Source: Pseudomonadota bacterium
GTDB taxonomy: Bacteria > Pseudomonadota > Alphaproteobacteria > Rhizobiales > JAKPQE01
Assembly: GCA_029572955.1 (NCBI GenBank)
Contig: JAKPQE010000067.1
Coordinates: forward strand, 1-57,287
Length of the DNA stretch: 57,287 nt
Direction of reading: 5' to 3'
The notes beneath the pieces are model-generated. The model was not told where the DNA came from, ran no database searches, and saw only the letters and a program-made list of their open reading frames with translations. Shown piece by piece: positions 2,731 through 19,060 of this stretch; position 1 is the first letter of the stretch; each line of letters starts with the position of its first letter. The position numbers and the translations under genes are program-made.

Positions 2731-3753
2731 TCAGACGCCGAGGCGGCCGCGCAGCATGATCGAGGGGCGCAGGGCACCGACGACGGTGCCGCGCCAGTTG
2801 GTCAGCCTGGGCTGCATCAGGTTCTCGACGAGCCGCTGATCGTCGCCGGCAAGGCGCAGGAAGCGGGCAAGGAGCGCCGCCGTCACCACCTCGGCGGCGC
2901 GCGGGGCGCCGTCGTCGCACTTGATGGCAAAGCCGAGGCCGAGTTCCGGGAAGGCGCCGCCATAGACGCCTTCGGCGCCGACCTTGACGAGGGCGCGCGG
3001 GCCGAGCGCCGACATCACCGTGGTGCAGAAGCGGCCGGTGCCGGCGACGAGGAACGGCTCGGCGGCACAGGCGGCGCAGAGCCGCGCCACCGCCTCGGCG
3101 CGCGGCGCCGACAACCCCTCGCCGCTGCCGAAACGGGCAAAGCCGAGCGCCAGGGCGCGCAGCGGCAGGGCCCAGTTCGGCGCCGAACAGCCGTCGACGG
3201 CGCGCAGATCCTCCTCGACCGGCGCCCCGGTCAGATCGGCGAGCACGGCGGCGACGGCGATCTGCACGGCATGGTCGGGGTCGACATAGTGGTGATGGTC
3301 GACGCCCATGTGGCAGGCGAGGCAGACGAAGCCGGCATGCTTGCCCGAGCAGTTGTTGTGGAGCTGGCCGGGGGTCCGGCCCTCGCGGCCGAGGGCTGCG
3401 ACATCCTCGGGCCGGCGCGGCCAGTGCGCGCCGCATTCGAGCGCCGTCTCGTCACGGCCGGCGGCCGCCAGCATGCCGGCCGCGACCTCCAGATGACGCG
3501 GCTCGCCATTGTGCGAGGCGCAGGCGAGCGCCAGTTCGCGATTGCCGAAGCCATAGGCGTCGGCCGCGCCGCTCTCGACCAGCGGGATCGCCTGGAACGG
3601 CTTGATCGCCGAGCGCGGGAAGACCGGCGTCTCGACGTCGCCGACGGCGAACTGCAGGCCGCCGGTGGCATCGACGACGGCGACGGCGCCACGGTGGACG
3701 CTTTCGACGAGGCGGCCGCGTGTCACCTCGACCAGAACGGGATCGGAACTCAT
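2731..3753 (-). CDS. L-asparaginase, Rhizobium etli type II family
   Basis: 340 aa, predicted to hydrolyse L-asparagine to aspartate and ammonia. It belongs to the R. etli family (PF06089), unrelated to E. coli-type asparaginases. The family's key residues fall at the numbering I recall for the R. etli enzyme: Ser48 and Lys51 in RSAIKPF, Cys135 and Lys138 in NCSGKHAG, and Cys189 in DGCSAPN; Cys135, Lys138 and Cys189 are the proposed metal ligands. No signal peptide is seen, so it is probably cytoplasmic. Its stop lies 3 bases from the stop of the convergent SDR gene, and its start is 22 bases from the stop of the exported protein upstream on the same strand. Confidence 0.9.
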   Translation of the reverse strand: MSSDPVLVEVTRGRLVESVHRGAVAVVDATGGLQFAVGDVETPVFPRSAIKPFQAIPLVESGAADAYGFGNRELALACASHNGEPRHLEVAAGMLAAAGRDETALECGAHWPRRPEDVAALGREGRTPGQLHNNCSGKHAGFVCLACHMGVDHHHYVDPDHAVQIAVAAVLADLTGAPVEEDLRAVDGCSAPNWALPLRALALGFARFGSGEGLSAPRAEAVARLCAACAAEPFLVAGTGRFCTTVMSALGPRALVKVGAEGVYGGAFPELGLGFAIKCDDGAPRAAEVVTAALLARFLRLAGDDQRLVENLMQPRLTNWRGTVVGALRPSIMLRGRLGV

Positions 3754-3778
3754 CGGCGATGTCCTCGTTTCTGCCGCC

Positions 3779-5230
3779 TCATGGCCGGCCCGCGGCGGGC
3801 GCGCCGGGCGGCGCCAGTCCGGTCACGGCGAGGACGTCGTCGCTGGCCGGGCCACCGGCGCCGGCCATGGCACCGTCCTCGGAATGACCGACCGAGAGAT
3901 ATAGCGTCAGCCCGTCCGGGGAAAACACGATGCCGGCGGGCTTTGCCGAGGCATCGCGCAGCGACAGCAGCTTGATGCAGCCGTCGCTGGCGAGGTCGCG
4001 GTCGGCACCATCGGGCAGGCAGGCGAAGACATCGCCATTGCCGCGTCCCTCGGCGACATAGAGGATGCCGGTGCCGGGCTGGAAGGCGACGTCGTCGGGG
4101 GAGTTGAAGTCGTCGTCGCCGGCAAGGAGCCGCGAGACGCGGACGGTGAAGGCCGAGGCCTCGTCGCCGGCGATGCGCGGCGAGCGGTCGACGGCGCAAA
4201 GGACCTCGCCATACGCGCCGGCGTCGGCGCGCCCGGAATTGGCCCAGCAGATCCTTGCGCCGGGGCCCTCGAACAGCGGATCGACGTCCATGTCGGACGG
4301 GCGATACCAGGCCGTCGCGCCGAGACCGTCGGCATCGAAGCGGGCGCTCGCCGGGTCGACCTCGATCCAGCCGGCATTGCCGAGGCCGCAGCCCTGGCCG
4401 AACTGGATCCGATCGGCAAAGCAGGAGACCTGCAGGGCATAGCTGCGCCCGGCGACGAGGGGCGAGCGGTCGAGGCCGGCGATGCGGCCGCCGGGATGAG
4501 CCTGCGCGGGCACGAACTTGTAGATGGTGCCGCCGTCGCGGTCGACGCCGATCTCGCCCGGGGTCGCGTCGTCGCCGGCATAGAGCACGCCGCTGTCGAG
4601 CAGCGCGGCGCCGGCCCAGGCGATCACCGGCAGGGCCGGACGGCGGGCAACGCCGGCCGGGTCGCTGACGCGGCCGCTCTCGCGGTCGAGCACCGCGGCC
4701 CCGGTCAGGGCCAGCGGGTCGAGGATTTCCCAGGCGGCGCCGTCACCGGCGATGCCGCGCTCGCCGACGAGGAGGGTGCCCCAGGCGGTGGCACGGGCAA
4801 CGCCGCAATGCTCGAGCCCGGAAAGGATCGTCTCGACCTTGCCGTCGGCAAGGGCGATGCGCTCCAGCGAGGCGGTGGCGGGGGCGCCGGCGGGGGCGAA
4901 GCCGTCGCCCGCGGTCCCGGCGTCGATGCAGCCGACGAGATGGGTCGGGGCGTCGGGCGGGAACGGCACCATCTCGTCGGAGCGGTCGGCGGCGGCGCGC
5001 GTCACATAGGCCGGCACGAGGCTGCGCGCGGCGAGAAGCTGGTCGGCGGCGGACTGTTCGGGCGCGCGGCGGATCGGGTCGGCCCCGGCGGAGGCGGCGA
5101 GCGGTCCGTCGATGCCGAACAGCGCGGCGCTGCGGCCGGCGAGTTGCAGCTCGACGAGCGCGCCGAAATCCTCGGCGGATGCCGGGATCGCGGCAACGGC
5201 GCATATGACGGCGACAGCGAAACGGCGCAT
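3779..5230 (-). CDS. Exported PhoX-like (DUF839-type) protein
   Basis: 483 aa. The N-terminus [19 protein letters not shown] is a clear Sec-type signal peptide with probable cleavage after ASA (residue 19), so the product should be periplasmic. The C-terminal part ([20 protein letters not shown], then [17 protein letters not shown]) reads like beta-propeller blades of the PhoX/DUF839 group. PhoX phosphatases normally use a twin-arginine signal, which is not obvious here, so phosphatase activity is not assured. Start chosen as the ATG directly in front of the signal peptide; the frame is open upstream to 5485 but without signal features. Several Cys residues could form disulphides. Confidence 0.7.
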
Positions 5231-5444
5231 GAATGGCCCTCCCCGCGCCGCAGCAGATCGCGGCCGCATGGCAAAAACAAGGCCCGAAGCCTCGCCTGCG
5301 GCGGCCTCCTTGACTATCATCCAGCAAGATTCGCCGGGCGGCCCCGGCCCATCGCCGGATCGGGCACGGCCCGCCCCGCGATCGATGGCAGCCCCTTTGC
5401 GGCCGCGGCGCCGGCAGAGAAGGCCGGCCGAGAAGGAGAGCCAG

Positions 5445-5765
5445 ATGCTGACCACCACGACCAACACCATCGAGGGGCGCACCATCCGCGCCTACAAGGG
5501 CCTCGTCATGGGCGAGGCGATCCTCGGCGCCAACATCTTCCGCGACCTCTTTGCCGGCATCCGCGACATCGTCGGCGGCCGCTCGGGCGCCTACGAGAAG
5601 GAACTGGCCAAGGCGCGGCGCATCGCCCTCGACGAGATGTGCGCCGATGCCGAGGCGCTCGGCGCCAACGCGGTGATCGGCATCGACCTCGATTACGAGA
5701 CGGTCGGCGCCAACGGCTCGATGCTGATGGTCACGGCGACCGGAACGGCGGTGGTCTACGAATGA
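5445..5765 (+). CDS. YbjQ/UPF0145 family heavy-metal-binding-domain protein
   Basis: 106 aa. Matches the YbjQ family in length and pattern: a beta-rich start ([21 protein letters not shown]), central helix ([25 protein letters not shown]) and a C-terminal strand ending GTAVVYE. The family is annotated as a putative heavy-metal-binding domain and its function is unsettled. A strong ribosome binding site (AAGGAGAG) lies 5-6 bases before the ATG. The stop overlaps the ATG of the next gene (ATGA), so the two are translationally coupled. Divergent from the PhoX-like gene. Confidence 0.85.
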
Positions 5766-6328
5766 CCGCGGCCCGCTCCCCCGCCGGCGCGCTCGCCGCC
5801 CTCGCCGCGGCGCTGGCCCTCGCCGGCTGCGTCACCGGCGGCAGCGCACCGGCCGTGACGCTGATGGCGATGTCCGAGGCCGGCGTCGGCCCGATCAACG
5901 GTGCGACGCCCTATTCCGACAAGGCGATCGCCGGCGCGCTCGACGGTTTCGAGGTGCGGCCGGTGCAGGCGACGGTCAATGGCGAGGTGAAGTGGATCCT
6001 CGCCGGCTTCTACGATGGTTTCCAGACGCTGCGCTTCGTGCCGGACGGCAGCCGGCGCCAGGTTGCCGAGGTGCAGGTGGTCAGCGACCTCATCCGCGGC
6101 CCCGGCGGCGAGCGGGTCGGCATGTCCTTCGCCGAGAGCGGCGGACGCCGGCTCGACTGCAAGCCCGGCCACGACGAGTGGAGCGGCATGGCGGTGTGCA
6201 GCGACGCGGCCCGGCGCATGCGCTACGTCTACGCGGTCGAGGCCTATCGCGGGCCGGACGGCGTGCTGCCGGACGCCGCGACCCTCGCCGAGGCGCGGCT
6301 CGTGCGCATGGTCTGGCACGCGCCCTGA
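5762..6328 (+). CDS. DUF1131 (YfeY-like, RpoE-regulated) lipoprotein
   Basis: 188 aa. The N-terminus has a hydrophobic stretch ending in LALAGC, a lipobox with the acylated Cys about residue 22. The mature part resembles E. coli YfeY (DUF1131): [20 protein letters not shown] near the start, [10 protein letters not shown] in the middle, and [14 protein letters not shown] before a final RLVRMVWH. YfeY is a sigma-E-regulated lipoprotein of unknown role; whether this copy is stress-regulated cannot be seen. Overlaps the upstream YbjQ gene by 4 bases. Converges with the autoinducer synthase gene, 11 bases between stops. Confidence 0.82.
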
Positions 6329-6339
6329 GGCGCCCGCCG

Positions 6340-7623
6340 TCAGTTCGAGCGCGATTCCGGCCCGTTCCGCGTCGTCCCGCCCGGGACCGAACGAACCCTC
6401 GCGCGGGACGCAAGGCCGATGGTCGAGCCCTTGCGACGGATGTCGTCGCAGGCGGCGATGGTGCGGTCGAGGTCGGTGGCCGTCAGGCTGCAGTTCAGCG
6501 TGAAGCGGATGAGCGAGGCACCCTTCGGCGTCGCCGGCGGGCAGAAGACGCTGCCGAAGATGCCGCGCTTGGCCAGTGCCTCGCGGAAGAACACCGTGTC
6601 CTCGAAGCCGCCGGTGATGATGGCGACGATCTGGCGGTCGCTGCGGGTGACGTCGTAGCCGACGTCGGCGAGCCCGTCGCGCAGGAAGCGCTGGTTCACC
6701 GCCAGCTGCTCGCGCCGCCAGGGCTCGTCACGGATGATGTCGAGCGTCTTGTCGAAACCGGCGATCTCGTAGCCGAGCACCGACGTCGAGAAGATCATCG
6801 GAAAGGCTTCGTAGCGGAAGAATTCCATATTGCAGGCCGAGCCGACGACCATGCCGCCGCGCGCCGCCACCGCCTTGGACAGGCCGACGGTGCGGAAATG
6901 CACCCGATCCTCGAGGCCGAGCTCGACGACGATGCCGGCCCCGCCCGGGCCCTGGCAGCCGAAGGAATGGGTCTCGTCGACGATGATCGCGCAGCCGCCC
7001 GCCTCCGCCGCCGCGACGATGTCGACGAGCGGCGCGACGTGACCGTCGGTGCTGTAGAGGGCGTCGACCGCGACGATGCCGGGGCCGAAGTGGCGGATCT
7101 TGCGGGCGAGATCGCCAGCGTCGTTGTGGCGGAACGGAATGGCGCGGGCGCGCGCCGCCGAAACACCCTCCCACAGCGAGGCATGGGCACGATGGTCGAG
7201 ATAGACGACGACATCCTTGCCGGCGAAGGCCTGCATGAGGCCGGTGTTGGCGTTGTAGCCCGACATCGCCAGCACCGCGTCCTCGGCGCGCAGCAGCTCG
7301 GCGAAACGGTGCTCGAAGGCGCGGTGGGCGTCGTTGCGGTCGTGCACGAAGACGCGCGAAATGGCATCGCCGTGACCATGCGCCAGGAGTTCCTCGGCCT
7401 TGGCCCTGGCGATGCGGGGGTCGCCGGCGAGCGAGAGGTAGTCGTTCGACCGCATGACCACGCCGTCGGGGCCCGGCTGGTCCCATCCGAGGGTGACATG
7501 CGAGATGTGACGGCCGGCAAAACGGTCCAGCGGGCCGCTCACCGCAGCCTCGATAAAGTCCGGATTCGGCGCCGCCCCGTGTTTTTTCAGGTGTTGACAC
7601 GGCGCCGCTTTTGCCGATTGCAT
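6340..7623 (-). CDS. cqsA: Alpha-hydroxyketone quorum-sensing autoinducer synthase (CqsA/LqsA type)
   Basis: 427 aa PLP-dependent alpha-oxoamine synthase-fold enzyme expected to join an acyl-CoA to an amino-acid-derived substrate, giving the precursor of a CAI-1/LAI-1-like autoinducer. Family-specific matches to Vibrio CqsA: SNDYLSLA (59-66), SLWEG (149-153), GPGIVAVDALYST (180-192), the PLP-contacting DETHS (216-220), the Schiff-base lysine Lys250 in VGLSKAVAARGG, and GIFGSVFCPPAT (354-365). GIFGSVFCPPAT and SLWEG separate it from KBL, BioF and HemA relatives. The C-terminal ~25 residues extend beyond Vibrio CqsA (~390 aa). Start ATG at 7623 has GGGGAG 8 bases upstream (7632-7637). Divergent from the sensor kinase gene. 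Confidence 0.9.
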   Translation of the reverse strand: MQSAKAAPCQHLKKHGAAPNPDFIEAAVSGPLDRFAGRHISHVTLGWDQPGPDGVVMRSNDYLSLAGDPRIARAKAEELLAHGHGDAISRVFVHDRNDAHRAFEHRFAELLRAEDAVLAMSGYNANTGLMQAFAGKDVVVYLDHRAHASLWEGVSAARARAIPFRHNDAGDLARKIRHFGPGIVAVDALYSTDGHVAPLVDIVAAAEAGGCAIIVDETHSFGCQGPGGAGIVVELGLEDRVHFRTVGLSKAVAARGGMVVGSACNMEFFRYEAFPMIFSTSVLGYEIAGFDKTLDIIRDEPWRREQLAVNQRFLRDGLADVGYDVTRSDRQIVAIITGGFEDTVFFREALAKRGIFGSVFCPPATPKGASLIRFTLNCSLTATDLDRTIAACDDIRRKGSTIGLASRARVRSVPGGTTRNGPESRSN

Positions 7624-7775
7624 TGGCCACGCTCCCCGTTTTCGGTCCTGTCCGGGCGGGATTGTGGATTAAAAAAAAGGTGCTGTCTCAACTATTCGAG
7701 AGATATCCTCAGGTTTTATCGAAGGTCCTATTCCGGTCTCTTCGAGACATTTACGGTGCGCTTGGAAATAACTTC
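7624..7775. promoter_or_regulatory. Divergent intergenic region between cqsA and lqsS
   Basis: 152 bases carrying the promoters of both the synthase and the kinase/regulator operon, if the kinase starts at 7776. It turns AT-rich from about 7660 (TTAAAAAAAAGG). An inverted repeat GTCTC-TTC-GAGAC lies at 7736-7748, and the core TTCGAGA is repeated directly at 7695-7701 and 7741-7747. No convincing sigma-70 -35/-10 pair could be picked by eye. The region remains open in the kinase frame, so a longer N-terminus is possible. Confidence 0.45.
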
Positions 7776-9005
7776 ATGATTCACTCCTACATAAGAGATT
7801 TCGAACGCATCCGAATTAAACTCGGCGTACTTGCCGTATTCGGCGTGTTCGGATATTTTGTTTATTATTATTTTTGGGGATTTGCCTTTCCACAGCAGTA
7901 CGAGAATTTCTATCTACGATTGATCGGAACCGTCGCTTCCATCTTTGTCGTGCTGAACGAGACGGTCATAAAAGTCATCAACAAAACATACATCGTCTTT
8001 TCCTATTTTTACCTGCTTTACTGCCTGCCTTTCTTCTTTTGCTTCATGTTCCTGCATAATATCGATTCGTCCGTCTGGATGGGATCGATGATCTGCGCGA
8101 TCATGTACTTGGCTTTTGTTGTCGATGCAGCCAACCTCGCGATCATGTTCTTGATCGGCGGCGGCGGCGCCGTGCTCGCCTTTTTCGGCACCACCACCCC
8201 GCCGGTCGACACCGAGGCGATCTTCGAGGCCCTGCCGGTCGTGGCCTTCGCGCTGTTCGGCGGCGTGGCCACGAAGTATGCCGAGGAGCGCACCATCGAG
8301 GCCAATCGCGACCGCGCCATGGCGCTTGCCCATTCCATCGCGCACGAGCTGCGCACGCCGTTGTTCGGCATGAAGCTCGAGCTCGACGCGCTCAACACCG
8401 AGATCAACGAAGGGCTCGAGGCCGGCGAGGAGACAATCCCGCGGCGCACGCTGGTGCCGGTGCTCGGCCGCATCCGCCGTCACACCTCGAAGGCCTCGAA
8501 CATCGTCGAGCTGCTTCTCCACAACGCCCGTGACGAGGAGATCGACAGCCGCGGCTTCGGCACCCACGACATGGCCGAGACCGTGGCCGAGGCGCTCGGC
8601 CGCTACCCGTTGAGCGAAGCCGAGCGCAAGCGCATCTCGGTGCGCAAGGTCGCCGATTTCAACTATCACGGCTCCGATATCCTGATGGGCAATGTGATCG
8701 CCAATCTCATCGGCAACGCGCTCCGGGCCACCAACCAGAACGGCGGCTCGATCAATGTCGAGATCGACGGCGACTCCACGCCGCCGCAGGTGCGGGTGCG
8801 GGACGGCGGCACCGGCATCCAGCGCTACGACCAGCGCAAGGTGTTCGACCGCTTCTATTCCGGCCGCGAGGGCGGCGCCGGCCTCGGCCTGGCGTTCTGC
8901 CGGCGCGTCGTCACGAGCTTCGGCGGCACCATCACGCTGCAGTCCGAGCCAGGTATCTTCACCGAGTTCGTCATTCGTCTCCCGAGATCCGAGAAGTCTT
9001 CATGA
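7776..9005 (+). CDS. lqsS: CqsS/LqsS-type membrane sensor histidine kinase
   Basis: 409 aa. The N-terminal ~165 residues are a multi-helix membrane sensor resembling Vibrio CqsS: FPQQYENFYLRL (38-49), CLPFFFCFMFL (83-93) and an acidic VVDAAN (115-120). The kinase core follows: H-box AHELRTP with phospho-acceptor His190, N-box around 306-320 (NVIANLIGNALRATN), G1 VRDGGTGI, G2 GGAGLGLAFCRRV. Unlike CqsS there is no C-terminal receiver domain, as in Legionella LqsS. Start chosen at ATG 7776, with GGAA 8 bases upstream and matching the CqsS N-terminus; the frame is open to 7611. Overlaps lqsR by 4 bases. The DNA encoding the sensor is about 44% GC, far below the rest. Confidence 0.88.
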   Translation: MIHSYIRDFERIRIKLGVLAVFGVFGYFVYYYFWGFAFPQQYENFYLRLIGTVASIFVVLNETVIKVINKTYIVFSYFYLLYCLPFFFCFMFLHNIDSSVWMGSMICAIMYLAFVVDAANLAIMFLIGGGGAVLAFFGTTTPPVDTEAIFEALPVVAFALFGGVATKYAEERTIEANRDRAMALAHSIAHELRTPLFGMKLELDALNTEINEGLEAGEETIPRRTLVPVLGRIRRHTSKASNIVELLLHNARDEEIDSRGFGTHDMAETVAEALGRYPLSEAERKRISVRKVADFNYHGSDILMGNVIANLIGNALRATNQNGGSINVEIDGDSTPPQVRVRDGGTGIQRYDQRKVFDRFYSGREGGAGLGLAFCRRVVTSFGGTITLQSEPGIFTEFVIRLPRSEKSS

Positions 9006-10033
9006 GCCTCGTATTCGACAGGAATGTGCTGCTCAACCATCCCTGCAGCACGCTCCTCCTGGACGACGACGCCGATGTCGTCGAAACCTTGCGCAATTTC
9101 CTCGGCGGCCGCACCGCGTGCCTCGGCTATACCTCGCCGCAGCTGGCACTCGGCCGCCTCGCCAATACCGGCCAGAGCGCCGCCGATCTCAGCCGGTTCA
9201 TCGGCCATTACGGCGACCGGCCGGAGGACCAGAGCGCCGACAAGGCCGACCGGCTGTTGCTGCTGCGCTATTCGGAGGTGCTGCGCTACGCCACCTCGCC
9301 GTCGCGCTACGACATGATCTCGGTGGTCATTTCCGACTACGACATGCCGGAGATGACCGGCATCGACTTCTTCCGCCAGATCAAGCACCTCAAGGTCAAG
9401 AAGGTGCTGCTGACCGGCAAGGCCGACGAGAAGGTGGCGGTCGAGGCGTTCAACGAGGACATCATCGACGGCTTCCTGCTGAAGCAGGACCCGCGCATCC
9501 CCGACCGGCTGCCGGCCATGGTCCTTGCCCAGCACAACGCCTTCATCCGCGAGAATTCCCGCATTCTCGTCGAGATGCTGCGCGCCTCGCAGGACAACAC
9601 CTTCGAGCATGACGGCATCGACGCCATCCTCGACCAGGTGCGCAAGAACTTCAGTTTCATGGAATACTATTTCATCACCGAGCCGCGCGGCTTCATCCTC
9701 AGGAACGCTGCCGGCAAGACCAAGATGCTGCGGCTCGAGACGAAGAAGACGCTCGGCGAGATCGCCGACATCTTCGAGGACCAGTTCGGCCGCTCGCCGA
9801 TGTCGGATGCGGTCAGGGCCGCCGCGGTGCTGCCGGAAAACGTCGGCGGGCCGGGCTGGGTGCACCGGCTCTACGACGATTTCGAGACGCATCTGGTGCC
9901 GTGCCGGATCACCGGCGACTGGGCCTGGGCGCTGACCGACTTTTCCCAGGAAGACGAGATGCTGTCGACGTCGTCGTGGTCGGCGCATCGCTCGGCGGTG
10001 CTCGAGCGGCCGATCAATCCGCGCGTCAACTGA
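9002..10033 (+). CDS. lqsR: LqsR-type response regulator with inserted receiver and non-HTH output domain
   Basis: 343 aa. The receiver domain has the acidic pocket Asp21-Asp23 (LLLDDDAD), phospho-acceptor Asp112 in VVISDYDMPEMTG, Thr138 and Lys161. About 65 residues separate the acidic pair region from the phospho-acceptor strand, far more than in a normal receiver, as in Legionella LqsR. The C-terminal ~150 residues (FMEYYFITEPRGFIL onward) show no helix-turn-helix, GGDEF or HPt that I recognise. ATG overlaps the kinase stop (ATGA), so it is coupled to the kinase and is its probable partner. Converges on malQ with a 24-base gap. Confidence 0.82.
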   Translation: MSLVFDRNVLLNHPCSTLLLDDDADVVETLRNFLGGRTACLGYTSPQLALGRLANTGQSAADLSRFIGHYGDRPEDQSADKADRLLLLRYSEVLRYATSPSRYDMISVVISDYDMPEMTGIDFFRQIKHLKVKKVLLTGKADEKVAVEAFNEDIIDGFLLKQDPRIPDRLPAMVLAQHNAFIRENSRILVEMLRASQDNTFEHDGIDAILDQVRKNFSFMEYYFITEPRGFILRNAAGKTKMLRLETKKTLGEIADIFEDQFGRSPMSDAVRAAAVLPENVGGPGWVHRLYDDFETHLVPCRITGDWAWALTDFSQEDEMLSTSSWSAHRSAVLERPINPRVN

Positions 10034-10057
10034 GGGACGGCGGCCGGGCGGGCGGCA

Positions 10058-11929
10058 TCACTCGCCGGCGCCGCTGCGTCCCTCGGTCATCGCCGTGCAC
10101 AGGCGGTCGAAGCGGTCGACATCCGCGATCTCCTCCAGCGACACCGGCAGGCGGCGGCGCCAGTTCGGATGCTCGTCGACGGTGCCGGGCAGGTTCGGCT
10201 GCTCGACGAGGCCGAGCGCGTCCTCGATACCGGCGGCGACAGCCGCCGCCGGGCTCGATGCCAGCCGGCGGTGCAGGGCAAGGCTCAGTTCCTCGCGATC
10301 GTCGCGCTCGCTGGCGGCGAGGTCGACGCCGGCCATGCCGGTGAGGCGCCAGAGGTCGTGGTCGCGTTCAGTGCGCTCGGCAGCGATCGCCTCGGGATCG
10401 TGGCGGCCGATGCGCTCGCGCCATTCGATGTCGCGAAAGCCCATGAAGCCGCGCAGGGTCGGCAGGTCGTGGGTCGTCAGGGTCGCGATCGCGTCGCGGG
10501 GGTATTTCTCCGGCGTGCGGAAATCGCCGCCCCATTCGCGCTCGAACCAGGTCACCCGGTAGCCGAGCACGTTGCGCCGGGCCATCGCCTCGCGCAGGCC
10601 CTCGGGCACGTTGCCGAGATCCTCGCCGACGACGACGCTGCGCGCGGCGCGGGATTCGCGCGCCGTCACCGCGAGGAGGTCGTCGAGCGGGAAGCGGACA
10701 TAGGTGCCGGGCAGGCCCTCGGGGATCCAGAAGGTGCGCACGAAGCCGAGCACGTGGTCGATGCGGATCATGCCGGCGCGGGTCATGGCGCTTTTCAGCA
10801 TCGCCGCGAAGGGGGCATAGCCGGTGCGCTTCAGGGCATGCGGATTGAACGGGGCAAGGCCCCAGTTCTGGCCGTTGGAATCGAAAGCGTCGGGCGGCGC
10901 GCCGAGCGACACGCCGCGGCCGAACATCTCCGGCTCGGCCCAGAAGTCGGCGCCGTGGCCGGCAACTCCGACGGCGATGTCGAGATAGAGGCCGAGGCGC
11001 ATGCCGGCGGCGCGGGCACGGGCCTGGGCCGCGGCGAGCTGCTCGTCGGCGAGCCACTGCAGATATTCGTGGAAGGCGACGCGGCGGGCGTTCTCGCCGG
11101 CGAAGCGCGCGACCTCGCCGGAACGCGGATCGCGATACGCCTGCGGCCAGCACGGCCAGCCGGCGGCGTCCGGGCGCTCGCAGGTGAAATGCTCGGAGAG
11201 CACGTCGAAGACGGCGCGCCGGCGCAGCCCCTCGCCACGGCTCTGGCGGAACGCCTCGAAGGCGGCGCGGCGGGCGCCGCCGCCCGTCTCGAACGCCTCG
11301 AACAGCGCCTCGTAGAGCGGCCATTTGAGCGCGGCGACGGCGGCGTAATCGATCAGCTCGCCGTCCCGCAGGGCGGCGAAGGCCGCGGCACTGGCCTCGA
11401 GGGCGCGACGGGCCGGCTCGCTCGTTTCGAATTCCGGCACCTTGTCGACGGCGATGTGGAAGATGTTGAGCCCCTGCCGGCTCGACGGCGAATAGGGGCT
11501 GACCCATTCGGGCCGCGCCGGAAAGAGCGCGTGCACCGGGTTGATGCCGAGGAAATCGGCGCCCTTCGCCGCGGCGATCTCGGCCATGCGGGCAAGGTTC
11601 TCGAAGTCGCCGACGGCCTGGTCGCGATCGGAGACGAGGCCGTAGAGCGGCGCGGTGAAGCCCCAGGGCAGCGGCCCGCCGGCCGTCGCCTCGGCGACGG
11701 AGAAGCAGGCACCGGCGTCTTCGGCGAGGTCCGGGTCGCCGGCCTGGAGCGGTGCGGCCAGCGCCTCGGCGATCTCGGCCGGCGTTTCGGCGGCAACGCC
11801 CATCGCGGCGAGCACGGCGCGGACGGTCTCGTCCGGCACCGGATGATGGCGGCCGGCGCTGTCGTAGTAGCTGCGCTCGATGCCATACTTGTCGGCAAGG
11901 AGGTCGAGCGCGGCGGGCTGATCGGTCAT
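10058..11929 (-). CDS. malQ: 4-alpha-glucanotransferase (amylomaltase)
   Basis: 623 aa GH77 enzyme moving alpha-1,4-glucan segments between maltooligosaccharides and glucose. Recognisable blocks: GINPVHALFPARPEWVSPYS near the N-terminal third, IDHVLGFVRTFWIPEG with the catalytic Asp, VVGEDLGNVPEGLREAM with the acid/base Glu, and TTHDLPTLRGF with the transition-state Asp. Start ATG 11929 overlaps the glgX stop (ATGA), and TTTCTG precedes it, so translation is probably coupled to glgX. It is the last gene of the glgC-glgA-glgX-malQ operon and probably recycles the short chains released by the debranching enzyme. Confidence 0.93.
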   Translation of the reverse strand: MTDQPAALDLLADKYGIERSYYDSAGRHHPVPDETVRAVLAAMGVAAETPAEIAEALAAPLQAGDPDLAEDAGACFSVAEATAGGPLPWGFTAPLYGLVSDRDQAVGDFENLARMAEIAAAKGADFLGINPVHALFPARPEWVSPYSPSSRQGLNIFHIAVDKVPEFETSEPARRALEASAAAFAALRDGELIDYAAVAALKWPLYEALFEAFETGGGARRAAFEAFRQSRGEGLRRRAVFDVLSEHFTCERPDAAGWPCWPQAYRDPRSGEVARFAGENARRVAFHEYLQWLADEQLAAAQARARAAGMRLGLYLDIAVGVAGHGADFWAEPEMFGRGVSLGAPPDAFDSNGQNWGLAPFNPHALKRTGYAPFAAMLKSAMTRAGMIRIDHVLGFVRTFWIPEGLPGTYVRFPLDDLLAVTARESRAARSVVVGEDLGNVPEGLREAMARRNVLGYRVTWFEREWGGDFRTPEKYPRDAIATLTTHDLPTLRGFMGFRDIEWRERIGRHDPEAIAAERTERDHDLWRLTGMAGVDLAASERDDREELSLALHRRLASSPAAAVAAGIEDALGLVEQPNLPGTVDEHPNWRRRLPVSLEEIADVDRFDRLCTAMTEGRSGAGE

Positions 11930-14076
11930 TTCTGTTTCCCGTTGGGGAAGCCGGCCGCGGTCTCGACGAACACGGCGAGCGAGCGCGGCTCCATGGCGAG
12001 CGAAGCGCGCGAGCCGAGGGGAACGGCGATGGCCGGAGCGCCGTCGGCGGTGGTGGTGTCGATTTCCATCTTCCAGACGTGGCCGGGGCTCGCCGCCGGC
12101 ATGACGAAACGGGTCGCCTCGGCACTGGCGTTGACGACGATCATCACCGGGCTCTCGACGATGTCGTAGGCCGGGGCGTCGGCCGCCGTGCGCAGCACCA
12201 CGGCGAGACAGCGCAGGCCCGGATTGCTCCAGCCGTCGCGGCCCATCTCGCGGCCGTCCGGGGCGATCCACTGGATGTCCTTGATGTCCTCGCCGGCGCG
12301 GCAGTTGCCATGCAGGAAGCGGGACTGGCGGACCGCCTTGTTGTCGCGCCGGAAAGCGGCGAGGCGGCGCACGAAGGCGAGGAAGTCGGCGTCGGTATGG
12401 AGGCCGCCCCAGTCGACCCAGCCGGTCGAATTGTCCTGGGCGTAGGCGTTGTTGTTGCCGCCCTGGCCGTTGCCGATCTCGTCGCCGGCATGGATCATCG
12501 GGGTGCCCTGCGACAAGAGCAGCGTCGCCATCAGATTGCGGCGCTGGCGATTGCGCACGGCGCGGATCTCGGGGTCCGTCGTCGGCCCCTCGACGCCGTA
12601 ATTGGCGCTGAAATTCTCCGAATGGCCGTCGCGGTTTTCCTCGCCATTGGCCTCGTTGTGCTTGGTCGCGAAGGCGACCGAGTCGGCGAGCGTCAGGCCG
12701 TCATGGGCGGCGACGAAATTGATCGAGGCCCAGGGCCGGCGGCCGTTGCGATCGAAGAAGTCGGCCGAGCCGGCGATGCGGGTGGCGAATTCCGGCGCCA
12801 TGCCGCCGTCGCCGCGCCAGAAGCGGCGCACCGTGTCGCGATAGCGGTCGTTCCATTCGGCCTGGCCGGGCGGGAAGCCGCCGAGGCGATAGCCGCCATA
12901 GCCGACGTCCCAGGGCTCCATGATCAGCTTGACGCGGGCGAGCACCGGATCCTGGCGCAGGGCGTCGAGGAAGCCGGCGCCGGGGTCGAAGTCGGAATGC
13001 TCGCGGGCAAGGGCGCTCGCCAGATCGAAGCGGAAGCCGTCGACATGGCCGACCTCGACCCAGTAGCGCAGGGAATCGAGGACGAGGCGCTGGACGTGCG
13101 GCTGCGACAGGTCGAGCGTGTTGCCGCAGCCGGAATAGTCCGTGTAGTAGCGCGGCGCCATCGGATCGAGCCGGTAATAGCTGCGATTGTCGATGCCGCG
13201 GAACGACAGCGTCGGCCCGTACTGATTGCCCTCGGCGGTGTGGTTGTAGACGACGTCGAGGATGACCTCGATGCCGCCGGCGTGCAGGCTGCGCACCATG
13301 TGCTGGAAATCGGCGAGGCCGCCGCCGGTGAGGAAGCGGATGTCGGGCGCGAAATAGCCGAGGGTGTTGTAGCCCCACAGGTTGACGAGGCCCTTGTCGA
13401 CGAGGAAGCGCTCGTCGGCATAGGCGTGGATCGGCAACAGCTCGACGGCGGTGATGCCGAGCTTGACCATGTGATCGATCATCTGCGGCGAGGCGATGCC
13501 GGTGAAATGGCCACGGGCGACCTGGGCGACGTCCTGACGCTGCATGGTCGAGGCGCGCACGCCGGCCTCGTAGATGACGGTCTCGGACCACGGCGTCTCG
13601 GGCGGGCGGTCGTGGCCCCAGCTGAACAGCGGATCGACGACGACGCATTTCGGCATGGCGAAGGCGCTGTCGCGGCGGTCGAAGGAGAGGTCCTCGCGGC
13701 CGCTGTCGCGGCGGTAGCCGTGCAGCGAATCGCTCCATTTCAGCCGGCCGGAAAAGCCCTTGGCGTAAGGGTCGATCAGCAGCTTGTTGGGATTGAAGCG
13801 GTCGCCGGCCTCCGGATCGTAGGGGCCGTGGACGCGATAGCCGTAGAGCGTGCCGGGGCGGATGCGCGGCAGATAGCCGTGCCAGATGTCCGAGGTGCGC
13901 TCGGGCAGCGCCTTGCGGGCGATCTCGCGGCCGGTGCGGCGGGAGAACAGGCACAGCTCGACGCAGGTGGCGTTGGCCGAGAAGATGGCGAAATTCGTCC
14001 CCTCGCCATCGAACGTGGCGCCGAGCGGATAGGGCTGGCCGGGCTTGACCTCGAGACGGGCGGATGACGACAACAT
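11926..14076 (-). CDS. glgX: Glycogen debranching enzyme GlgX
   Basis: 716 aa GH13 debranching enzyme hydrolysing alpha-1,6 branches of glycogen. An N-terminal CBM48 region (PYPLGATFDGEGTNFAIFSA) precedes the catalytic barrel, with DVVYNHTAEG, VDGFRFDLASAL (nucleophile Asp), LIMEPWDVGYGGYRLG (acid/base Glu) and FVAAHDGLTLADSV (third Asp). Length is normal for GlgX. It lies 48 bases after glgA and overlaps malQ by 4 bases. The glgA-glgX gap holds a small inverted repeat (separate entry). Confidence 0.94.
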   Translation of the reverse strand: MLSSSARLEVKPGQPYPLGATFDGEGTNFAIFSANATCVELCLFSRRTGREIARKALPERTSDIWHGYLPRIRPGTLYGYRVHGPYDPEAGDRFNPNKLLIDPYAKGFSGRLKWSDSLHGYRRDSGREDLSFDRRDSAFAMPKCVVVDPLFSWGHDRPPETPWSETVIYEAGVRASTMQRQDVAQVARGHFTGIASPQMIDHMVKLGITAVELLPIHAYADERFLVDKGLVNLWGYNTLGYFAPDIRFLTGGGLADFQHMVRSLHAGGIEVILDVVYNHTAEGNQYGPTLSFRGIDNRSYYRLDPMAPRYYTDYSGCGNTLDLSQPHVQRLVLDSLRYWVEVGHVDGFRFDLASALAREHSDFDPGAGFLDALRQDPVLARVKLIMEPWDVGYGGYRLGGFPPGQAEWNDRYRDTVRRFWRGDGGMAPEFATRIAGSADFFDRNGRRPWASINFVAAHDGLTLADSVAFATKHNEANGEENRDGHSENFSANYGVEGPTTDPEIRAVRNRQRRNLMATLLLSQGTPMIHAGDEIGNGQGGNNNAYAQDNSTGWVDWGGLHTDADFLAFVRRLAAFRRDNKAVRQSRFLHGNCRAGEDIKDIQWIAPDGREMGRDGWSNPGLRCLAVVLRTAADAPAYDIVESPVMIVVNASAEATRFVMPAASPGHVWKMEIDTTTADGAPAIAVPLGSRASLAMEPRSLAVFVETAAGFPNGKQK

Positions 14077-18561: not shown

Positions 18562-19060
18562 CGTAGGACCGGGCTTTCGAGCGGATGATGTCGGTGAGCA
18601 TCTTGGAAGAGCGCGCGAGGCCTTCCTTCTTGTTCGCCACGGCGTTTTCCTCGGCCAGCAGCGAGGCATAGAGCGGCTCGATGACGTTCGAGACGACCTC
18701 GCGGCGCGGCACGCGGCGGTTCGAGTGGTAGCCGACGACGTTCTGGTCGGCATCCATCGACGGCGTGACGTGGGCGAAGACCCAGTAGAAGCTGCCGTCG
18801 CGGGCGAGGTTCTTGACGTAGGCGAAGACCTCGTTGCGCTCGGCGAGCGTATCCCAGAGCAGCTTGAACACCGCGCGCGGCATGTCGGGATGCCGGATGA
18901 TCGAATGCGGCTGGCCGAGAAGCTCGGCCTCCGAATAGCCGGCGAGGCGGGCAAAGGTGCGGTTGGCGTAGGTGATCCGGCCCTTCAGGTCGGTCTTGGA
19001 GACGATGATCTCGCTCCTGTCGAAAAATTGCTCGACATTGGTGGGTGCGGGTGCGTGCAA
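18539..19060 (-). CDS. PAS domain protein, Aer-like sensor
   Basis: 173 aa soluble PAS protein. [28 protein letters not shown] and [17 protein letters not shown] followed by [17 protein letters not shown] match the N-terminal FAD-binding PAS of the aerotaxis receptor Aer. FAD binding is inferred from that likeness. The C-terminal ~45 residues are helical. Start is a TTG at 19060 with GAGGGG 5 bases upstream. It overlaps the chemoreceptor gene by 23 bases. Confidence 0.82.

Follow-up and report, generated by a model that had tools for sequence, protein, structure and literature searches.

The three genes

The window analysed here is a stretch of 57,287 nucleotides, positions 1-57,287 of contig JAKPQE010000067.1 (assembly GCA_029572955.1), part of a genome of 3.76 Mb in 182 contigs from an uncultured alphaproteobacterium of the order Rhizobiales (hereafter the order), and at its positions 6340-10033 lies a candidate alpha-hydroxyketone quorum-sensing cassette. 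An open reading frame (ORF) check of the window found the genes for a synthase, a sensor kinase and a response regulator all open and uninterrupted, in the following layout:

6340..7623, minus strand: CqsA/LqsA-type synthase dependent on pyridoxal 5'-phosphate (PLP), 427 amino acids; codon of the PLP lysine K250 at 6874-6876
7624..7775, no strand: divergent intergenic region, 152 bp separating the synthase and kinase starts
7776..9005, plus strand: CqsS/LqsS-type sensor histidine kinase, 409 amino acids; membrane part at about residues 1-172; phospho-acceptor His190; no receiver domain
9002..10033, plus strand: LqsR-type response regulator, 343 amino acids; phospho-acceptor Asp112; start overlapping the kinase stop

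For the kinase, the reading frame is open from 7611, but the start best supported by alignment with relatives is the ATG at 7776; the regulator ATG at 9002 overlaps the kinase TGA at 9003-9005. An original prediction had described a three-gene cassette of synthase, sensor and regulator here, in which a synthase with PLP Lys250, DETHS and GIFGSVFCPPAT is divergent from a coupled kinase-regulator pair. All of these features are seen in the sequence (DETHS at residues 216-220), and the membership of the genes in their families lies far beyond chance.

The synthase and its branch

The synthase scores 428.6 bits against NCBIfam NF005526, the alpha-hydroxyketone synthase model (cut-off 428; 428.3 bits in a six-frame search), and 248.2 bits against the next-best model, bioF. 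Its best matches among solved structures are CqsA (3hqt and 3kki, E 1.1e-80), then 2wk7 and 2wk8, which are CqsA too, and after these serine palmitoyltransferase (SPT, E 3.9e-46). It is 38-41% identical to the Vibrio enzymes over 88-89% aligned, and its H147, D216, H219 and K250 are invariant in all 29 aligned rows. A scan of named genomes with the synthase returned 12 loci, all of them distant (28-34% identity); five of these were labelled, three above the SPT cut-off and two best with bioF yet below its cut-off. A tree built from 59 rows has a branch at 100/100 that parts the 32 CqsA-like rows from the other 27. Ten of the outside rows are labelled by NCBIfam, six as SPT, one as KBL and one as ALAS above cut-off, and two that score best with bioF below cut-off; no row of the tree passes the BioF cut-off. 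The expectation that the synthase stands outside the KBL/BioF/HemA branch is borne out by the tree with respect to KBL, ALAS and SPT, and with respect to bioF by the far lower score of that model; together, the model and structure scores and the tree rule out KBL, ALAS, BioF and SPT as identities for the protein. CqsA is represented in the tree by five Vibrio-type or Vibrio-named rows, with neither LqsA nor V. cholerae CqsA included; the near-copies L083 and L085 and the unfetched phylum matches G976, G1043 and G856 were omitted.

Within the CqsA-like group, the window synthase pairs with that of locus L039 (100/99), its nearest relative. The eight synthase rows of the order group together (99/96), as do the remaining 24 CqsA-like rows (97/91), and the two groups are sisters if the root of the tree lies outside both. 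What is new here is that the order's synthases, as judged from their sequences, are a distinct branch that is sister to all the other members sampled and bears five clade-marking substitutions, a column being counted as clade-marking where at least seven of the eight order rows share a residue and 75% or more of the remaining 24 have a different one. These columns are 88 (V in the order, I in the window synthase), 189, 218 (T for S), 247 (G for S) and 280 (T for S). Position 218 lies between Asp216 and His219, 247 three residues before the PLP lysine, and 280 within the conserved IFS(S/T) stretch. The equivalent of residue 247 in relatives presumably contacts the PLP phosphate, and we take the IFS(S/T) stretch to be near the cofactor. 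The substitutions are a lead towards a possibly altered use of substrate, short of proof.

The sensor and the regulator

The tie between the window sensor and CqsS lies in the membrane part. A profile of this part, built from eight sensors of the order (its E-values refer to a small search set), matched all 24 aligned sensors, including all 16 outside the build. Among 1459 locus ORFs it matched 26 at E <=0.1, each taken, by score or gene neighbourhood, to encode the sensor at its locus. V. campbellii CqsS was found by the profile at 1.7e-30 and by the window's membrane segment alone at 1.6e-8; the kinases adjoining the synthases of L081, L084 and L087 gave no match to the profile. In a kinase tree, four non-CqsS-type kinases separate from the remainder at 100/100. 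The CqsS group in that tree is impure, since it contains the long-branched plasmid kinase L055, which is alike in the core only. The top NCBIfam kinase model for the window sensor, LuxN, covers the kinase core only (98.6 bits, cut-off 1550). A generic sensor kinase can be ruled out, the relationship to CqsS being carried by the membrane part alone; the predicted grouping with CqsS-type sensors is upheld by the profile and the kinase tree, for the membrane part alone too.

A further claim, that the ligand-facing sensor differs from both the Vibrio and the Legionella models, is true of one part of the pocket. According to PMC3376566, W104 and S107 of V. cholerae CqsS are linked to the C3 group and F160, F162 and F166, as a set, to the head group, while the LqsS residues are given as I/F/A and T/L. 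In V. cholerae numbering, by a column map, the window sensor keeps W104, S107 and F162, and for these head-group residues the claim fails. At the positions of the Vibrio gatekeepers (F160/F166) and tail residue (C170/F175) it has V160, G166 and T170; the Vibrio pattern is absent here, the residues come closer to the LqsS pattern as PMC3376566 gives it, and to this extent the claim stands. On the column map, the tail position falls on V. campbellii residue 175, in agreement with the published V. harveyi number. Because the 24 sensors vary among themselves at the gatekeeper and tail positions, at which LqsS is reportedly different as well, the residues found there define the Vibrio subgroup and not the family, and the notion of a uniquely different pocket in the window sensor was dropped. 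A Phe at CqsS 170 restricts the tail to C8, as shown in PMC3285556, and T170 in the window sensor thus suggests that no C8 limit applies; the sensor of L039 has Phe at this position, so that tail preference may differ between the two.

The regulator resembles PDB 6sy9, which we take to be LqsR. Searched alone, it matches this structure at 99-236 (E 2.7e-18), and a profile of 19 regulator relatives matches it end to end, over residues 21-356 (E 1.1e-94). The receiver acidic pair, Asp, Thr and Lys (D21, D22, D112, T138 and K161) are invariant in all 19 regulator rows. Pfam and NCBIfam name only the receiver domain in the protein; the LqsR output domain is described in PMC10653808 as resembling that of a diguanylate cyclase, degenerate and with no activity detected in vitro.

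Distribution and interpretation

Searches at E <=1e-75 for the synthase and E <=1e-40 for the sensor, with the window's own genome included in every count, found the synthase in 8 of the 397 genomes searched in the order, 8 of the 385 in the class and 16 of the 398 in the phylum, and the sensor in 9 of the 394 searched in the order, namely all eight with the synthase and genome G129. In all seven order relatives with the synthase, the synthase, sensor and regulator genes lie side by side. In L039 the regulator is convergent with the synthase, and in L040-L045 synthase and kinase are convergent and the regulator is divergent from the kinase; L088 has the arrangement of the window, and the idea that the latter is unique was abandoned. 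Among the fetched phylum loci, which cover 12 of 15 genomes (L090 stops at a contig edge), a CqsS-type sensor is near in 12 of 12 and an LqsR-type regulator in 7 of 12. G129 (locus L114, G129:C6, 4562-7019) has the sensor and the regulator, its best synthase-like match being a 29% paralogue; it is of the same genus as G095, whose cassette is complete, and is a possible listener. No synthase was found in G001, a relative of the same family that is 84% complete (best match 29%), and all three genes are missing from its malQ locus.

Gene content, family membership, catalytic residues, linkage and co-occurrence make it very probable that the locus is an Lqs-type alpha-hydroxyketone quorum-sensing cassette; systems of this kind are already known, and this one belongs to a distinct branch. 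Its chemistry, ligand, switch direction and output can be sketched by analogy with the known systems. Using PLP chemistry, the synthase would join an acyl-CoA and a small amino substrate (in CqsA, S-adenosylmethionine or 2-aminobutyrate), and the amino- or enamino-ketone so formed would be converted to an alpha-hydroxyketone. The membrane domain of the sensor would detect this signal and switch the protein between kinase and phosphatase, and the LqsR-type regulator, coupled to the kinase, would receive phosphate at Asp112 and act through its C-terminal domain.

The Lqs system of Legionella pneumophila (LqsA/LqsS/LqsR, LAI-1) likewise has three clustered genes, a separate LqsR-type regulator and a non-hybrid sensor, the likeness being one of gene layout and, for the regulator, of the match to 6sy9. 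Unlike it, the window has no hdeD between the genes, and its sensor has W at the CqsS W104 position, where LqsS has Ser according to PMC3376566. With the Cqs system of Vibrio (CqsA/CqsS, CAI-1 type) the window shares a homologous synthase and sensor membrane domain and the W, S and F head-group residues; however, the Vibrio sensors are longer and carry a C-terminal receiver, no LqsR-type gene was found in the fetched Vibrio loci, and the F160/F166/F175-type residues are V, G and T in the window sensor. The Jqs system of Janthinobacterium/Duganella sp. HH01 (JqsA/JqsS/JqsR) is described in PMC3566124 as a cluster of synthase, sensor and regulator as well, but in a betaproteobacterial host. The same source states that the lqsA/cqsA-like genes known so far adjoin their sensor gene and that jqsA failed to complement Vibrio cqsA mutants; a Vibrio cqsA reporter could therefore fail even for a true system. 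By contrast, it reports a response of the jqsA deletion mutant HH02, read out through violacein, to cqsA as well as to lqsA.

Several observations weigh against an Lqs-type cassette. The synthase clears NF005526 by just 0.6 bit and its nearest relative, L039, falls below the cut-off (403.6 vs 428); the regulator is just 20-27% identical to its relatives; three of the clade-marking substitutions (218, 247 and 280) are near PLP-site motifs; and in seven other genomes of the class, the fetched stretch contains no CqsS-type sensor for eight of nine synthase genes, which means that the synthase family need not imply quorum sensing. The sole exception among these nine, L080, has a CqsS-type sensor near and no LqsR.

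The substitutions bear on a variant in which the order's synthase branch (T218, G247, T280) works with a different amino substrate or chain length and yields a chemically new signal, the sensor having diverged alongside. This would fit a branch that is specific to the order and sister to the 24 other members sampled, the position of the marked residues close to the PLP-site motifs, and sensor tail and gatekeeper residues unlike those of Vibrio; yet the sensor keeps its head-group residues, and changes at gatekeeper and tail positions that are variable through the whole family say little. We consider this variant rather unlikely: a signal with a new chain length or head group, as the original prediction proposed, is possible, but the retained head-group residues do not make it the default. 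The class genes without a CqsS-type sensor, and a fold family common to SPT, could instead suit a synthase that makes a membrane or storage lipid (sphingoid-base-like) beside an unrelated kinase-regulator pair. This is very improbable, given that the CqsA/LqsA clade stands at 100/100, separate from SPT, and that sensor and synthase co-occur in eight genomes of the order sample, linked despite different gene orders. A decayed or listener-only remnant, for which it speaks that in G129 a sensor-regulator pair exists without the synthase, is scarcely credible for a locus whose three genes are all open with catalytic residues intact.

The preferred reading, an Lqs-type cassette, also has to be set against earlier statements on its context. 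Such systems had been presented as rare outside Vibrio and Legionella, which proves overstated. One alphaproteobacterial member in print is R. vannielii, in whose name we read R. as Rhodomicrobium. Strain ATCC 17100 of this species is among the organisms listed with such a synthase in the legend of Fig. 7 of PMC3566124, and according to PMC10653808, 310 of 6,937 genomes, 16 of these alphaproteobacterial, have a PhcX/LqsR orthologue, with lqs clusters known from Alpha-, Beta- and Gammaproteobacteria. The absence of luxI and luxR holds for the window, within which part of the proteins were scanned for LuxR domains; it does not hold for the cell, as contig C155 of the same genome (L046:5884-7539) carries a LuxI-family gene adjoining a LuxR-type gene. 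No study of an alphaproteobacterial cassette was found in the literature searched, most subscription journals being outside its reach; two of the papers name Alphaproteobacteria solely among their references. To our knowledge, Vibrio and Legionella are the only groups for which the structures of alpha-hydroxyketone signals have been settled. A separate branch in Alphaproteobacteria with the entire cassette retained is a place to ask how synthase and sensor pocket co-diverge, and what the cassette adds to a cell already having luxI and luxR.

The alphaproteobacterial CqsA-like synthases without a CqsS-type sensor in the fetched stretch include L048, L082, L083, L085, L081, L084 and L087; in the last three, another kind of histidine kinase starts divergently beside the synthase and is perhaps a different sensor. 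Locus L086 (G681:C86, 5524-10514) has two tandem CqsA-like synthases and no CqsS-type sensor was found in its stretch. The second of these synthases is the C-terminal part of a 1191-amino-acid ORF. The N-terminal part of this ORF is similar to MMPL-type transporters and there are HlyD-type and AcrB-type genes upstream, so that the protein is a synthase fused to a possible exporter. Plasmid 1 of Polaromonas sp. JS666 (L052) and a Rhodanobacter plasmid (L054) each carry a CqsS-type gene paired with an LqsR-type gene in a stretch that contains no synthase, the pair of L052 lying a few genes away from brxC of a BREX system.

In the divergent region of the window (7500-7900), promoter and terminator scans gave a signal no higher than in shuffles; two inverted repeats at 7567-7608, counted without a chance estimate, lie within the synthase gene. 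The locus has genes of the YbjQ and DUF1131 families as its neighbours at one end and a 4-alpha-glucanotransferase (malQ) at the other, with glgX, glgA and glgC beyond malQ (names given from sequence alone). GC content is 0.49-0.66 across the kinase and regulator (7501-10000), against 0.68-0.77 at 3001-7500 and 0.70-0.74 at 10001-12500, and values as low as 0.63 also occur near 19000.

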